In this document: positions 15,453 through 51,723 of the stretch, piece after piece | Numbering within the stretch: position 1 is the first letter of the stretch | Layout of the letters: the number at the start of each line of letters is the position of its first letter | Notes under the pieces: generated by a model | Databases searched by the model: none | Seen by the model: the letters and a program-made list of their open reading frames with translations, nothing else | What the model was told of the DNA's origin: nothing | DNA from: Sinorhizobium fredii | Lineage (GTDB): Bacteria; Pseudomonadota; Alphaproteobacteria; Rhizobiales; Rhizobiaceae | DNA length: 64,000 bases | Direction of reading: 5' to 3' | NCBI RefSeq assembly: GCF_002944405.1 | Contig: NZ_CP024307.1 | Span: 268,501 to 332,500, forward strand | Program-made: the position numbers and the translations under genes

Positions 15453-15552
15453 CTACAGCGCCGCGCGTCTTATCAGACGCGCAAAGGTCGCTGTAGCACT
15501 TTGAATTGCTGCATGTCTCCTTAAATCGAGGTCGATTTAAGGAGACATGCAG
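15453..15552. repeat. RIME-type palindromic element, copy 1
   Basis: A 100-base element made of two hairpins. The first has CTACAGCG/CGCTGTAG ends and GCGCGTCT/AGACGCGC inside. The second is a perfect 21-base-pair stem (15509-15529 with 15532-15552) that starts CTGCATGTCTCC. The same layout recurs at 47411 and 56956, and in decayed form at 62166. It matches the rhizobial intergenic mosaic element described in Sinorhizobium and sits directly after the infC terminator. Confidence 0.85.
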
Positions 15553-33722: not shown

Positions 33723-33780
33723 GGCACCCGGCTACACCCCCCTCTGCACGGCAGGGCAGAGGGGGGTGTAGCCGGGTGCC
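33723..33780. repeat. Long perfect palindrome (short form of the CCCCCCTCTG repeat family)
   Basis: Two perfect 25-base arms (33723-33747 and 33756-33780) around an eight-base loop. The inner part, CCCCCCTCTGC...GCAGAGGGGGG with GGCAGGGCAGAGG, matches the arms of the much larger element at 50086-50281. It lies between convergent genes and could also terminate transcription. Confidence 0.85.
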
Positions 33781-44897: not shown

Positions 44898-45986
44898 CTA
44901 ATCCTTGCCGAGCCCGAGGATGTGCTGGTCCCAGGCGACGGCACTCTTCTGACCCTTGAACCGGCCATCATAAGTCGAGACGGCGAAGCCGGGTCTCGCG
45001 GCGGCAACGCCCGCCGCATCCACGACCCGTTCCTCCTTCAAGACCGCGCCCGTTTTCGCTTCGAGCGTCACGGCGACTTTGCCCTTCGGCGACGTGAGCG
45101 CGACAAGGTCCTCGCGGCGGTTGATGGCAATGGCGCCGACATAATTGGCGAGGGCGGCGGTCGTGCGCTCGGGGAGGGGGATAAAACTCAGCTCCTCCCC
45201 CTTTTTGAAATGCCCGACCAGCGGCGGCAGGTCGTTGCGCGCTCCCTCGTACTGGCAGGCAAACCAGATCCTGCCGTCGGCGCCGATATCGACGTGGCGG
45301 GTGGAAAGCTGCTTGAGCTCCGGCGGCAGGCCGTGTTTCTCGATGAGCGCGCCGGTCGCCGTATCGACCAGGGCGAGGCTCGGTTCCATGTGATCGAGAT
45401 TGAGCTTGGTGCGGCCGAAATCCGGATGGGTCTCGATGCCGCCATTGGCGATTGCGAGCGTCCGGCCGTCGGCGGTCAGCGTCATGTCGTGCGGACCGAT
45501 GCCATAGGTGGGGAATTCGCCTGTGCGGATGAAGCCGCGCGTCCCGTCGTAAACGCCGATCATGCCGCGATTGGCGGAGAAATCGTTCTCCGTGGCGTAG
45601 AGCAGCCGCCCGTCGGCGGAGAAGCAGCCGTGGCCGAAGAAGTGGCGGCCTTCGGCGGCGGAGATGACGACCGGCTCGGCGGTGCCGTCGGTCGCGAGGA
45701 TCATGGCATAGGTTCCGGGCCGGCGCGCAAAGGCGACGGCGCGGCGGGCCGCCGGCGAGAAGGCCATGCCATGCGCCCGCGCCGGCAGTAGCGTCCGTTC
45801 GACGATCTCTCCCTCCTCCGTCAGCGTCGCCACGCCATAGCTGCCGTCCGGCGCCATGAAGGCCGAGGCGAAGACGGCATCCGCCCGCTCGAGCGCGAAG
45901 GCCCCGCTTGGGGCGAGCGTCGCCATCCAGGCGGCGCCGGCCATTTTGACGAAGCTGCGTCGATCGATGAGGGTTTTGGTGCTCAT
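44898..45986 (-). CDS. Tat-exported DUF1513 protein
   Basis: A 362-residue periplasmic protein. The N-terminus DRRSFVKMAGAAWMATLA is a twin-arginine signal. The mature part is a beta-propeller-like DUF1513 domain with repeats such as FGHGCFSADGRLLYATENDF, GIGPHDMTLTADGRTLAIAN and RHVDIGADGRIWFACQYEG. DUF1513 genes usually cluster with imelysin and di-heme oxidoreductase genes in iron-related loci. Here the cluster is just upstream on the same strand, but separated by corA and two repeat elements. ATG 45986 is the start. Confidence 0.88.
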   Translation of the reverse strand: MSTKTLIDRRSFVKMAGAAWMATLAPSGAFALERADAVFASAFMAPDGSYGVATLTEEGEIVERTLLPARAHGMAFSPAARRAVAFARRPGTYAMILATDGTAEPVVISAAEGRHFFGHGCFSADGRLLYATENDFSANRGMIGVYDGTRGFIRTGEFPTYGIGPHDMTLTADGRTLAIANGGIETHPDFGRTKLNLDHMEPSLALVDTATGALIEKHGLPPELKQLSTRHVDIGADGRIWFACQYEGARNDLPPLVGHFKKGEELSFIPLPERTTAALANYVGAIAINRREDLVALTSPKGKVAVTLEAKTGAVLKEERVVDAAGVAAARPGFAVSTYDGRFKGQKSAVAWDQHILGLGKD

Positions 45987-46050
45987 GCGTTTTTCCGCGT
46001 GGCCGACGACAGTGAACGTCTCTCGGCGGAGAGGCGATCCTGCAGCGCAA

Positions 46051-46207
46051 CCCCTCCCCAACCCCTCCCCACAAGGGGGAGGGATTTACAATGCCGCGAC
46101 CGATTCGGCCGCTTAGAGCGGATCCGCGAGTTCGGATGTCGCAGATGGCGCTCGGCGGGCCGCGGCGGGCAAGCCCCTCCCCCTTGTGGGGAGGGGTTGG
46201 GGAGGGG
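46051..46207. repeat. 33-base perfect inverted repeat with 91-base spacer
   Basis: Arms at 46051-46083 (CCCCTCCCCAACCCCTCCCC then ACAAGGGGGAGGG) and 46175-46207 are perfect reverse complements. The CTCCCC-ACAAGGGGGAG core resembles the CTCCCCCACAAGGGGGGAG core of the element in the di-heme gene at 50086-50281. It fills the gap between corA and the DUF1513 gene. Confidence 0.9.
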
Positions 46208-46222
46208 TCTCGACTGCGTCAT

Positions 46223-47212
46223 CTACAACCAGCCCCTGCGCTTGAAATAGAGATACGGCAACAGCGCGGACATGACCATCAGCACCAGTGCATAGGGATA
46301 ACCCAAGTGCCAGTGCAGTTCCGGTATCGCGTCGAAGTTCATGCCATAGACCGAGGCGACCAGTGTTGGCGGCAGGAACACGACGGAGGCGACCGAGAAG
46401 ATCTTGATGATCTGGTTCTGCTCGAGATTGATCAGCCCCAGCGTCGCGTCGAGCAGGAAGTTGATCTTGTTCGACAGGAACAGCGCGTGGTCGCCGAGCG
46501 AGGCGGCGTCGCGCTGGATCAGCTTGATCCGCTGCCGACTCTCCTTGGCGGCCTTGCGTGCCGCCCTCCCTTCCACCGCGACGTGATAGGCGACGAGCCT
46601 GCCGATGCTGACAAGGCTTTCGCGGATGGTCGTCAGCAGGTCGCCCTTCTGGCCGATCTGCTCGATCAGCGACTGCAGGTCGCGCGTCTTCTTGGTGGCG
46701 CTGGCATGCGACTTGCGGAAGACCTCGCGAGAAATCGCGTCGACCTCGTTGCCGGCCCGCTCCAGCGCGTCGGCAATCCGGTCGATCATCGCCTCGAGCA
46801 GACCCAGCATGACCAGTTCGCCCGTCTCGCAGACGGCACCATTCGGCTTCTGGATGCGCGTTGCATAGAGCTGGAACGGTTTCGGGTCGGCGTGGCGCAC
46901 CGAGACGAGCGTCGCGCCCTTCAGCACGAAGGTCACCGGCACCTTGGCGGGGTAGTCGCTGTCGAGCTTGGCGGTCGCGGTCATGGTCATGAATTCCGCG
47001 CCGTCCTCCTGGTAGAGCCGGTCGGACAGCTCGATTTCCTGCATCTCGTCGCGGGTCGGAATGGCGATGCCGAGATGCTCCTCGACGAAACGCGTCTCAT
47101 CTGCGGAGGGGTTGAAGAGGTCGAACCAGGTCACCGGCTCCTGGAAGGCAGGACCGGCGGCACGATCGACGAGCACGAGATGGCCGTTCTGGCTTGTGTA
47201 GATGCGCAGCAT
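46223..47212 (-). CDS. corA: CorA-family magnesium/divalent cation transporter
   Basis: A 329-residue transporter. A large N-terminal cytoplasmic domain with a long stalk helix is followed by two C-terminal transmembrane helices, and the signature VYGMNF (GMN motif) follows the first (VVFLPPTLVASVYGMNF). The C-terminus is basic (YFKRRGWL). ATG 47212 with GGAG upstream is chosen. The gene is flanked by a RIME element upstream and a long inverted repeat downstream, and lies between imelysin-2 and DUF1513. Confidence 0.92.
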   Translation of the reverse strand: MLRIYTSQNGHLVLVDRAAGPAFQEPVTWFDLFNPSADETRFVEEHLGIAIPTRDEMQEIELSDRLYQEDGAEFMTMTATAKLDSDYPAKVPVTFVLKGATLVSVRHADPKPFQLYATRIQKPNGAVCETGELVMLGLLEAMIDRIADALERAGNEVDAISREVFRKSHASATKKTRDLQSLIEQIGQKGDLLTTIRESLVSIGRLVAYHVAVEGRAARKAAKESRQRIKLIQRDAASLGDHALFLSNKINFLLDATLGLINLEQNQIIKIFSVASVVFLPPTLVASVYGMNFDAIPELHWHLGYPYALVLMVMSALLPYLYFKRRGWL

Positions 47213-47410
47213 TCTGGGCTCCATGGGCGAGGTCATCGGACCGCCCGGAGCCCTGATCAATCAGGTCCGCACGGCCGCAAGGAAGACTCGACTTCGACTG
47301 TCGGGGTTCATCTTGGGTTAGTCCTTCGTGGGTGAAGCATGCCCGCGAGACGGGCATGGAATGCGCTTTGCTCCCATATTCGCGGCTTGTCAACCGGAGG
47401 CTTTTTCACG

Positions 47411-47519: not shown

Positions 47520-48644
47520 TCAATCGCCGTCCGCGAAGGAAAACCCGGCCCCAAGCCCGATCGCGCCGCCGAAGTCGCGGTTCAGCCGGTCGAGGAGGTC
47601 GGCCGTGTTGAGAGTGATGAAGTCGAGCCGGGAACGCTGTTTCTGATCGGCAAGCACCGCGTCGAGCGGGCCGTCGACGCGTTCGGTCATGCCGATCAAT
47701 GCTTTGAAAAGGAAATTTACCGACCCGGCAATAGAGCGGCTGTCGGCGGGAAGCAGGCTCTCCATTCCCGCAGCATTGAACAGCGTCTGCAGGCCGCTGA
47801 GGTTGCCGGCGATCGACCTCATCGTATTGCCCGATCGCCAGTAGATGGCGAGCTTGGGGCGGCCCTCGTCAGCCTTGCCGTCGATCGCGCCGGCATAGAA
47901 GGGGCGCAGCCGCTGGTCCTTGATCATTTCGACGCTGTGCACGAGAACGCCGAGCAGTTCGGTTGCCGCTTCCCTGTTGTCGCGGAAGAGGGGATTGTCA
48001 GCGCTCGGCGACTTCCAGGCGGACTGGAGGCCCTCGGGCTTCTCCCAGGCGGCGAGCAACTCGCCGGCAATCGTCGCCAGGTTCTGCGCGATCGTCGTTC
48101 CGTAAAGGCAGCGAAAGTCACCTTCCGCGCCGGTCAGCGTCTCGGCTCCCGTGCCGTAGAGAACATATTCAAGCGCGCCGAGGCCCTGCACGGCGACGCT
48201 TTTCGTTTTCAGGCTTTCCGCCTGCGTCGCGCTCTCGTCGCGCTTGGCGAGAATAGCCTGTACCTGTTTCAGGCCGGTGCTCTTGCGATCCGGATAGAAC
48301 AGGAAGCGCTCGAACCTGTTCTGTTCGAGGGCCGGTCCGAGGCGGATGATCTCGATCGTCGACCATCTTTGCACGACATCCGAAAAGGCCGCTCGCGTTT
48401 CCTCAAGTGCAGCGTCAGACGGCGTCGCACAAAGCGCGGCGCTTTTCTCGCCAAGTTCGCCCGTCGCCCGCCTCAGGTCGCGATAGCCGGGAATGATGAA
48501 GCCATCGACCGCCTTCGCCATCACGCCCGGCAGGGCGGCTTCGTCGAGAACGCGCGGCAAAAGCGCGTTGCCCTCCTGGGCCGCCGCGGGTGCGATCGCT
48601 GCAAGAAGCAGCAAGCCGAGGATCAGGGGAAGGCGCAGGCGCAT
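47520..48644 (-). CDS. Imelysin-family periplasmic protein (second paralogue)
   Basis: A 374-residue exported protein. The signal peptide spans about residues 1-22 (ends APAAA). The M75/imelysin domain contains VDGFIIPGYRDLRRATGELG, FSDVVQRWSTIEIIRLGPAL, FYPDRKSTGLKQVQA and GLGALEYVLYG (residues 154-164), where the classical GxHxxE motif has Gly instead of His. This marks the sub-group usually encoded after the di-heme protein. Probably a periplasmic iron-binding component. ATGA overlap with the di-heme gene. Confidence 0.87.
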   Translation of the reverse strand: MRLRLPLILGLLLLAAIAPAAAQEGNALLPRVLDEAALPGVMAKAVDGFIIPGYRDLRRATGELGEKSAALCATPSDAALEETRAAFSDVVQRWSTIEIIRLGPALEQNRFERFLFYPDRKSTGLKQVQAILAKRDESATQAESLKTKSVAVQGLGALEYVLYGTGAETLTGAEGDFRCLYGTTIAQNLATIAGELLAAWEKPEGLQSAWKSPSADNPLFRDNREAATELLGVLVHSVEMIKDQRLRPFYAGAIDGKADEGRPKLAIYWRSGNTMRSIAGNLSGLQTLFNAAGMESLLPADSRSIAGSVNFLFKALIGMTERVDGPLDAVLADQKQRSRLDFITLNTADLLDRLNRDFGGAIGLGAGFSFADGD

Positions 48645-50398
48645 CAGAGCGACTCCAGAAAGGAAAGCAGGGCGTTTCGGTCGTCCTTCGACATGGCGGC
48701 GAAGGCATCGCGGGCCTTTTCCGCCTCGCCGCCGTGCCAGAGGATGGCCTCGGTGAAATTCCGGGCACGCCCGTCATGCAGCAGGAACGTGTGGCCGCTG
48801 ACGGTCTTCGTCAAGCCCAGCCCCCAAAGCGGCGGCGTGCGCCATTCGCGTCCGCTGGCAATTCCGACCTGCTGGCCGTCGGCGAGCCCGTCGCCCATGT
48901 CGTGCAGCAGGAAGTCGGAATAGGGCCAGATCAGCTGGAAGGCCAGCTCCTTGTGAGGCGCATCGCGCCGGGTCACGTATTTCGGCGTGTGGCAGACCGG
49001 ACAGCCCGCTTCATAGAAAAGCCGTTTGCCCTCTAGCGTTTGCGGAAAGCTCGCCTTGCGCCGGGCCGGCACCGCGAGATTGGCGGAATAGAAGGTGACG
49101 AGGCCGAGCACCGGGTCGGGGGCCTCGACCGGACCGAGCCGCGCCTGGACACCGATCGGAAGCGTCAGGCAAGCGCCCTGCGCCTTGGTGCAGTCGCCAT
49201 GGCCGCTGTCGAAGGCCGGCGTGGAAATGCCGATATCGACCGCAAAGGCGTCTGCTGCCTGTTGGCGAATGGTCGGATTCTGAGCCTTCCAGCCGAAGCG
49301 GCCGAGCGCGATCGTGCCACTGTCCCGATCCCGGGCGATTGCCGCCCGTCCGCTGACGCCGTCACCGTCCCGGTCGTCCGGGTCGGCTTTCGCAAGAATG
49401 TCTGCCTCGTGGATCATCTCGATGAGGCCGAGCCCGATCATCGCCGGGGCGACGCGCGGCGACAGGGTCGTCATCGGGTCCATCGGGCCATAGCCGAGAT
49501 CGGTGACTCTGTAATGCGGCTTTCGGAGATGGACGATCTCGCCATCCGCAAGCGGCACCGCTTCTTCCCGGTAGCTGACCTTGAGACGGCCTTCGGCGGC
49601 AAGCCCGGGCACGGCGCTGTCCTGCAGCTGGGCGCCATAGACGGGGTCCGGGAAATTCAGTGCCTGGTGGTCAGCGATGAAGCGCCGTTCGGCTTCGTCG
49701 CGCGGCGGACGGGCGAGACGGTAGACCGTCGATGTCGAATCCACCCCCTCCGGCGGGCGGCCCCGCCCATCGCGCGGATGGCAGCTTTCGCAGGCGCGGG
49801 CGTTATAGAGAGGGCCGAGTCCATCGGAGGCTTGGGTCGAGGAGGGGGCGGAGACCCAGAGCTTTTCGAACAGCGCCTTGCCGAGCTTGAAATTCTCTTC
49901 GTCTTCGAAGGGTAGGTTGGCCGAGAACTGCTGGAAGACCCTCTGGTCGATTGGCGCGATCGTCGTTGTGGCGCCCGCCGACATCGCCTCGAACTGTTCG
50001 GCCTTGGAAAAGTCCTGGGTGGGCCGGGTGACGGTTTCGACGCGTTCGAGATCCTGTCCGGAAAGGTCGTCGCGGGCCGGGAGGCACCCCCCTCTGCCCT
50101 GCCGGGCATCTCCCCCACAAGGGGGGAGATCGGTAAGCGCCGATGTTCCGCTCAACGAATTAGGCTGCGCGTGTTCGGTTGAATTCGACAGGTTCAGTAT
50201 TTGCGCGTTGATGGGGCAGGGCTTTGCTTCCGGCCAATCTCCCCCCTTGTGGGGGAGATGCCCGGCAGGGCAGAGGGGGGTATCACCCTTCACCCCGGCG
50301 GCAGCGCCGAGGCCATCGCCTGTAGCCCAAGCCGCGGCGGCAACGCCGATAAGCGCGGCGAGCGGCAGCGCGAGGAAGCGGGCGGTCAGGACTTTCAT
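48644..50398 (-). CDS. Di-heme oxidoreductase (DUF1111/DHOR) carrying an in-frame palindromic insertion
   Basis: A 584-residue periplasmic c-type cytochrome. The signal peptide is residues 1-26. Two heme-binding motifs, CESCH (203-207) and CPVCH (466-470), and the flanks YNARACESCHPRDGRGRPP and GWKAQNPTIRQQ identify the DHOR family, encoded with imelysins in iron-related operons. Residues about 40-105 (PLCPAGHLPHKGGD ... CGGDARQGRGG) have no counterpart in the family and are the translation of the inverted-repeat element at 50086-50281. The frame stays open, so the protein may still be made with a roughly 65-residue linker after the signal peptide. Confidence 0.88.
   Translation of the reverse strand: MKVLTARFLALPLAALIGVAAAAWATGDGLGAAAGVKGDTPLCPAGHLPHKGGDWPEAKPCPINAQILNLSNSTEHAQPNSLSGTSALTDLPPCGGDARQGRGGCLPARDDLSGQDLERVETVTRPTQDFSKAEQFEAMSAGATTTIAPIDQRVFQQFSANLPFEDEENFKLGKALFEKLWVSAPSSTQASDGLGPLYNARACESCHPRDGRGRPPEGVDSTSTVYRLARPPRDEAERRFIADHQALNFPDPVYGAQLQDSAVPGLAAEGRLKVSYREEAVPLADGEIVHLRKPHYRVTDLGYGPMDPMTTLSPRVAPAMIGLGLIEMIHEADILAKADPDDRDGDGVSGRAAIARDRDSGTIALGRFGWKAQNPTIRQQAADAFAVDIGISTPAFDSGHGDCTKAQGACLTLPIGVQARLGPVEAPDPVLGLVTFYSANLAVPARRKASFPQTLEGKRLFYEAGCPVCHTPKYVTRRDAPHKELAFQLIWPYSDFLLHDMGDGLADGQQVGIASGREWRTPPLWGLGLTKTVSGHTFLLHDGRARNFTEAILWHGGEAEKARDAFAAMSKDDRNALLSFLESL
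50086..50281. repeat. 45-base perfect inverted repeat inserted inside the di-heme gene
   Basis: Arms at 50086-50130 and 50237-50281 are perfect 45-base reverse complements (outer ACCCCCCTCTGCCCTGCCGG, inner CTCCCCCACAAGGGGGGAG) with a 106-base spacer. The whole element is within the coding frame of the di-heme oxidoreductase, just after the signal peptide. Related shorter palindromes are at 33723-33780 and 46051-46207. Confidence 0.93.
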
Positions 50399-50442
50399 CG
50401 GGCAAGAGCCGGGCCGCTGTCGGAACGGCCCGCCTTTTCAGC

Positions 50443-51723
50443 TTATTGGAAAACCGCGTTAGGATTATCCAGGCTATCCGAACCTTCAAGCTCGATCGTG
50501 CCGAGGTCGAGCGCCGCGATGACCCGTTCGACGGTCTTGGCCTGGGCAATCAGCCCGTCGATCGCGGCCTGGACGGTAGCGTTACCTTCCGCATTGTTTT
50601 CGCCGATCATCTGGTCGTAGGCCTCGACGGTCTCGGCCCGCTTTGCCATCGCCTGCATCTTCTCGACCGTCGTCGCGAGATTGGCCGTCATCTCCTTGTC
50701 GAGCGCGGCGTCCTTGGCGGCGACGAGCTTGGAAAGCGACGGGCCGGTGAGCTTCGTGCCGTCGATCCGGGTGTATTCGCCCGTATAGGCGGACTGGATG
50801 CCGATCGCGTCATGCAGGTGCGAATTGTGGGTGTTGTCCGAGAAGCAATCATGTTCCTCTTCCGGATCGTGCAGCAGCAGGCCGAGCTTCATGCGCTCGC
50901 CCGCAAGTTCGCCATAGGAGAGCGAGCCCATGCCGGTGAGGATCGCCGCGAGGCCGGCCTTGGGTTCGGCTTCCACCGCCTTGGCCGCGGCACCTTCCGG
51001 TGCCCAGTTGGCGACCATTTCCTTGAGATCGGAGACGAGCAGGTCGGTCGCCGCCTTCAGGTAGGCAGCGCGGCGGTCGCAATTGCCGTTGGTGCAGGCC
51101 TTGGTGTCGAAATCGGTATAGGCGCGCTTGCCAGCGCCCGGGCCGGTGCCGTTCAGGTCCTGGCCCCAGAGCAGGAATTCGATGGCGTGGTAGCCGGTCG
51201 CGACATTCGCCTCGATGCCGCCGGCTTCCTGCAGGGTGCCGGCCAGGAATTCCGGCGTGATGTTCGTCGCGTCGACGTCCTTGCCGTCGATCTTGATCGT
51301 CTTGTTGGCGATGACATTGGCGGTGAACAGCGCGTTCTCGTCGCTCTCGGTGCCGTAGCTCGGGTCGACATAGTCGATCAGGCCCTCGTCGAGCGGCCAG
51401 GCGTTCACCTTGCCTTCCCATTCATCGACAATCGCATTGCCGAAGCGGTAGACCTCTGTCTCCTGGTAGGGGTTGCGCGCCCTGAGCCAGGCCTCGCGCG
51501 CCGCATTCAGCGTCTCCTCGTTGGGGCTGACGATCAGCGCATCGACGGCCTTGTCGAGGGCTTCGGCGGTCGTCACCGCGTCCTCGTATTTGGCATGCGC
51601 GATCGCCGCATAATGCATTACGACGGCGGCTGCGTCGGTCGCGGCGCTGGCCGGCTGCAGGGCCAGCACGGACGTGGCCGTCATGAGTGCCAGCGCGGCG
51701 GCGCGGGTGAAATTCTTGGTCAT
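50443..51723 (-). CDS. Imelysin-family periplasmic protein (IrpA-like)
   Basis: A 426-residue exported protein; signal peptide about residues 1-28 (ends PASA-A). The imelysin/M75 domain has the full GxHxxE motif GYHAIE at 177-182 followed by FLLWGQDLNGTGPG, plus KVNAWPLDEGLIDYVD and DPEEEHDCFSDNTHNSHLHD, the typical IrpA blocks rich in potential iron ligands. It heads the imelysin - di-heme - imelysin operon (44-base gap to the next gene). An Irr-like box lies about 100 bases upstream. Confidence 0.92.
   Translation of the reverse strand: MTKNFTRAAALALMTATSVLALQPASAATDAAAVVMHYAAIAHAKYEDAVTTAEALDKAVDALIVSPNEETLNAAREAWLRARNPYQETEVYRFGNAIVDEWEGKVNAWPLDEGLIDYVDPSYGTESDENALFTANVIANKTIKIDGKDVDATNITPEFLAGTLQEAGGIEANVATGYHAIEFLLWGQDLNGTGPGAGKRAYTDFDTKACTNGNCDRRAAYLKAATDLLVSDLKEMVANWAPEGAAAKAVEAEPKAGLAAILTGMGSLSYGELAGERMKLGLLLHDPEEEHDCFSDNTHNSHLHDAIGIQSAYTGEYTRIDGTKLTGPSLSKLVAAKDAALDKEMTANLATTVEKMQAMAKRAETVEAYDQMIGENNAEGNATVQAAIDGLIAQAKTVERVIAALDLGTIELEGSDSLDNPNAVFQ

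Follow-up and report, generated by a model that had tools for sequence, protein, structure and literature searches.

The di-haem oxidoreductase (DHOR) gene of Sinorhizobium fredii carries, within its coding sequence and in frame, a 196-nt palindromic element at 50086–50281 of the window, by which we mean the whole 64-kb stretch of DNA analysed. We consider it quite probable that this is an old palindromic repeat accommodated in a tolerated linker of DHOR, the arms of which are held by a force acting at the level of nucleic acid. As an earlier sequence-only reading had described, two perfect arms of 45 nt (50086–50130 and 50237–50281) enclose a 106-nt spacer, and the inverted repeat reaches 55 nt at 93% when extended. 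The element, assigned to neither strand, is identified by its inverted repeat, its folding and its family copies. In the reading order of the gene, on the minus strand, the upstream arm (50237–50281) encodes TPLCPAGHLPHKGGD and the downstream arm (50086–50130) encodes (L)PPCGGDARQGRGG(C); the spacer between them (50131–50236) varies among species in sequence and length, stays open and includes an invariant cysteine. Two occurrences of the arm core GCCGGGCATCTCCCCCACAAGG are present in the window, whereas 100 shuffles contain it 0.00 times on average, so that it is unexpected by chance. As RNA, the 196-nt element is predicted to fold at -139.3 kcal/mol (z = -13.2), and no match to an Rfam covariance model was found in 49500–51000 at E up to 1.

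Further copies of the same family between genes of the window, as previously proposed, were not recovered: full copies exist elsewhere in the genome, but the 64 kb hold no second one, the sole other match being 23 nt within a hairpin at 33723–33780. This is a compact structure with 25-nt perfect arms, the inner part of which matches the tip of the repeat arm (ACCCCCCTCTGC), and it may be a terminator or else a degenerate copy of the repeat. Another long palindrome at 46050–46208 (34-nt perfect arms, 91-nt spacer) differs in sequence and has only the core CCCCACAAGGGG in common with the DHOR element; it lies near the start of a DUF1513 gene (44898–46061, minus strand) and before a CorA-like gene (46223–47260). 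A perfect 21-nt inverted repeat with a 2-nt gap (CTGCATGTCTCCTTAAATCGA) is present at 15509–15552.

The host gene (48644–50398, minus strand; ORF and Pfam evidence) is an open reading frame of 584 residues that continues uninterrupted across the element, which contributes 66 extra amino acids (residues 40–105). Pfam places the DHOR domain at residues 140–584 (E 2.5e-89), with a Cytochrom_C match at residues 456–584, and the insert therefore lies outside the domain, in keeping with the earlier suggestion that about 65 residues have no place in the DHOR family. The gene is flanked by two imelysin-family genes, one upstream (Peptidase_M75; 50443–51723, minus strand) and one downstream (47520–48644, minus strand). 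The nearest named relatives of the protein are from Sinorhizobium/Ensifer, led by S. americanum at 91%. A PDB sequence search with DHOR gave no hits at E up to 0.01, and the AlphaFold model is of poor quality (mean pLDDT 33). The N-terminus (MKVLTARFLALPLAALIGVAAAAWA; 50324–50398, minus strand) resembles a signal peptide as judged by eye, and similar N-termini occur in most orthologues, which makes the insert a putative linker between this start and the DHOR domain. We regard it as highly improbable that translation of DHOR starts downstream of a non-coding element whose frame is open by chance, aided by G+C-rich arms: in nearly every orthologue the signal-peptide-like start comes first, ahead of the insert where there is one and otherwise running straight into the domain, and every change in insert length keeps the frame. 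Chance opening as such is nevertheless common in this family. None of the six frames is closed in the arms, and of the 25 intergenic copies 23 have one frame or more open, compared with a shuffle mean of 22.6 (107 of 200 shuffles reach 23). Long open frames also enclose the copies found upstream of smc, glgX and a PBP gene. The mean number of open frames in intergenic copies is 3.24 versus 1.92 in shuffles. Nothing supports the idea that the whole element is designed to be coding-ready, given that shuffles are open about as often as the intergenic copies. For DHOR itself, the insert is predicted to be translated, and it may be retained in the exported protein.

The DHOR gene is present in all 33 genomes of the genus, of which 30 orthologues were read (G012, G020 and G022, without a locus, were left out). 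An insert with both arms intact occurs at the same site in 20 of these 30, in-frame remnants persist in three (L044, L045 and L047) and seven have no insert; in L049 the end of the element is left as a scar. The insertion is thus not the local novelty it had appeared to be, and comparison of the orthologues indicates that it is old. Nor is it a conserved domain of DHOR, a candidate that is ruled out by the Pfam match beginning at residue 140 and by the insert-free orthologues: the segment is shared among homologues to the extent given above, close to what the sequence-only reading would have taken as its refutation, but it is missing or fragmentary in the remainder and still recognisable as repeat DNA. 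On a DHOR tree rooted with Rhizobium the distribution fits one gain followed by five losses (nucleotide tree) or four (protein tree), and a Fitch count gives five changes on both; this single-gain history depends on a single gene tree, and its nucleotide and protein versions do not branch alike. Across 394 genomes of the family, all matches listed outside the genus except that of G402 start within or after the insert region, and no arm was found in five doubtful extra-genus loci with a match extending into the insert (G402, G330, G289, G205 and G061), the G402 match itself carrying a TAG. All 20 intact inserts are open and fall into seven lengths of 64–74 residues, always in frame. In G008 (L029) a frame shift upstream of the insert puts the signal peptide out of frame, and the FtsY match of the same genome contains a TGA; these may be either draft errors or decay.

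Within the DHOR insert the arms and the spacer have diverged to very different degrees. Among 17 species pS is 0.066 (0.033–0.106) and pN 0.031 in the arms, compared with a pS of 0.404 (0.331–0.474) and a pN of 0.268 in the spacer and a pS of 0.444 (0.418–0.472) in the DHOR domain, in which the lowest pS among 408 windows of 15 codons is 0.284. These counts cover 17 of the 20 intact copies, excluding L029 (shifted frame), L037 (missed by the pattern) and L043 (3-nt arm deletion) as well as the three partial copies, and the exclusions bias the result toward conserved arms. Since the pS of the spacer is close to that of the domain, the spacer is about as old as the divergence of the gene.

Protein selection might now keep the insert because it has acquired a function in the enzyme, such as that of a linker or spacer closed by a disulphide. 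Four cysteines are found in 20 of 20 intact inserts, the distance from the first to the second is 18 in every one, one of the four is invariant and lies in the spacer, outside the arms, and the ratio of pN to pS in the spacer is below one (0.27/0.40). The spacer cysteine, however, is encoded by TGC in all 17 species counted and so lends no support from synonymous variation, and frozen synonymous sites in the arms are not explained by protein selection. Species without the insert or with fragments of it (L047 retains three cysteines) argue that a protein role is not needed. On balance we find a functional role of this kind unlikely.

A control for coding is provided by a family copy between pgm and glgX, 169 nt long here and common to many species (pgm confirmed; glgX-like domains by Pfam). 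In 14 genomes with both arms, out of 30 loci fetched (33 genomes), the arms differ at 0.12–0.14 per site, compared with 0.50 in the spacer and 0.37 at glgX third positions. A contrast similar to that in DHOR thus exists in an intergenic copy, which indicates that protein selection is not the main cause of the frozen arms; the arms are held by something independent of coding. Protein selection as the sole cause of arm conservation is ruled out by the frozen synonymous sites together with this intergenic copy. The arm difference in DHOR (about 0.04 per site) is lower than that of the pgm–glgX arms, so some protein-level constraint may add to the conservation in DHOR.

What holds the arms may be their structure. 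Within each arm there is a small covarying hairpin: among 220 twelve-base arm cores, one of its base pairs is of Watson–Crick type in 213 (166 C-G, 24 T-A and 23 G-C), G-T in two and unpaired in five, counts that do not represent independent events. No compensated changes from arm to arm were seen in the DHOR arms, so pairing between the arms is unproven as the target of selection. Alternatively, gene conversion between the arms and the numerous family copies elsewhere in the genome could have frozen them without selection. The DHOR arms are equal to the family consensus, as conversion would predict, and at the pgm–glgX copy a single arm switches between GCCC..GGGC and GGCC..GGCC as a block, with intermediates rare, which favours conversion for some intergenic copies. 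Against this stands an upstream-arm variant of FtsY, GTCCCTTCGGGAC, which occurs 39 times in 27 of the 33 genus genomes, always less than 1 kb from ftsY, and was not found away from ftsY in any of the 33. Homogenisation by a genome-wide pool should have overwritten such a variant, given the many consensus arms in these genomes, and its persistence argues against it. Gene conversion as the general cause consequently appears rather unlikely to us, though less so than a functional protein role. The covarying hairpin and the FtsY variant favour selection on structure or on a bound factor.

The element belongs to a large repeat family. With the 196-nt sequence as query, its own genome yields at least 101 matches, a list that may be incomplete as 40 of 48 first-look candidates were scored; of the copies examined, 29 have both arms, wholly or partly, and five are part copies. 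Family copies extend from ACCCCCCTCTG to CAGAGGGGGGT, and several share sequence beyond these ends. The arm-core pattern is present in all 33 genus genomes, with a reversed control pattern absent from all. A mobile, coding-compatible element had been envisaged, and copies of the family do lie in frame in five genes. As to mobility, no clear or consistent target duplication was found at the 29 copies, nor was a match to the Y1 (RAYT, REP-associated) transposase (PF01797) in the genome, the control search being positive in 5 of 14 known genomes. For these two reasons we infer entry by transposition rather than claim it, and present mobility of the family is unproven. Among annotated plasmids, no gene was found under the best match in the annotated rows of the best 60 of 182 records, many records being unannotated.

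Besides DHOR, Pfam context locates copies inside CobN (L055), FtsY (L059) and UvrB (L054) and at the N-terminus of a transglycosylase (L016). An arm lies within the open reading frame of CobN in 21 of 30 loci, 15 of which have at least two arms, within that of UvrB in 12 of the 22 loci read (of 30) and at the transglycosylase N-terminus in 10 of the 28 read (of 30). FtsY has at least two arm matches in its N-terminal region in all 30 loci read. Arm matches in this region also occur at 6 of 27 loci fetched from other genera of the family (18 read), two of the six resembling another repeat. The two FtsY arms have a pS of 0.095 and 0.114 versus 0.347 in the NG domain, values biased toward conservation because the arms, from 28 and 18 of 30 loci respectively, were chosen on amino-acid pattern. 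The reading frame is not the same throughout: the downstream arm is read as PPCGGDARQGRGG in DHOR and mostly as ISPLVGEMPGRAEGG in the other genes, and the frame used for the upstream arm in CobN is a different one.

Several observations concern the same protein segments. In L099–L128 the acidic N-terminal region of FtsY consists largely of in-frame repeat copies with acidic spacers, their number differing by species. The UvrB linker of L168, L170, L172, L174, L177, L182 and L184 contains a repeat-like peptide of another kind (SLPPVGRVGEG...GHPPHKGEG), as though a second palindromic family were using the same tolerant spot. Where transglycosylases lack the insert (L330–L344), the protein begins either with a short signal peptide of unrelated sequence or with a related N-terminus in which RAEGG persists, resembling a deletion scar.

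We posit that the element belongs to a non-autonomous, REP/MITE-like kind of rhizobial palindromic repeat and that one copy would have entered DHOR in frame, just past the region encoding the signal peptide, in a lineage ancestral to the genus Sinorhizobium. The exported DHOR may tolerate it as a linker of 64–74 residues ahead of the haem domain, and its frame would be kept because DHOR itself is under selection. The spacer would then have drifted as a loosely constrained linker, and the near-constancy observed in the arms, as in intergenic copies, would come from an action at the nucleic-acid level, for which the hairpin or some factor bound to it is the likeliest candidate. Similar insertions may have been fixed in other tolerant segments, namely the acidic region of FtsY, an internal segment of CobN, the C-terminal linker of UvrB and the transglycosylase N-terminus. 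More tentatively, and with odds somewhat below even, the family could constitute a two-code repeat, in which the arms are conserved base by base as a hairpin module of the nucleic acid, coding genes included, over the divergence of a genus, the host genes keep the frame, and FtsY copies with locus-specific arms now make up, in domesticated form, much of the acidic membrane-targeting region.

Coding palindromic repeats have so far been regarded as an oddity of Rickettsia and related bacteria, and searches of the open-licence literature yielded no report of such repeats being translated in rhizobia. The present family extends them to a free-living, genetically tractable group, with in-frame copies in no fewer than five genes, including ftsY. 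Species with and without each insertion make it testable whether selfish palindromes become lasting parts of proteins, and what holds repeat DNA constant as the surrounding protein drifts.

Among known systems, the Rhizobium-specific intergenic mosaic elements (RIME) are rhizobial palindromic repeats composed of smaller palindromes. The present palindrome is likewise built from smaller ones. Coding palindromes related to the Rickettsia palindromic elements (RPE) are known from Wolbachia. The likeness to RPE drawn by the sequence-only reading is borne out in kind, as the family is a palindromic repeat with many copies, mostly between genes, that also lies in frame in genes for the conserved proteins DHOR, CobN, FtsY, UvrB and transglycosylase. 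RPE are described, in the relevant passages of two papers, as palindromic repeats found between genes and in frame in genes for conserved proteins and kept across species (PMC10969869, PMC2229807), and the rhizobial element is similarly a palindrome of 100–200 nt, intergenic and in frame, that is kept across species. It differs in its host group, in arms that are open in six frames with more than one frame used among genes, in the presence of several copies in one FtsY domain, and in arms that are frozen at synonymous sites over the divergence of the genus; the likeness meant here is one of kind rather than descent. ERIC and NEMIS/Correia are small inverted-repeat elements that can fuse in frame to genes, according to passages of PMC2229807, but they belong to other bacteria, and the TA target sites and short terminal repeats given there are not evident in the rhizobial family. 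Closest by position is S. meliloti, for which a 'Repeat Sm-2' of 183 nt is tabulated as lying between pgm and glgX1, the Sm repeats being classed in that part of the source as non-genic (PMC2780559). With its 169-nt copy between pgm and glgX, the repeat family found in DHOR is probably the same as Sm-2, an identity based on position only and on this portion of the source.
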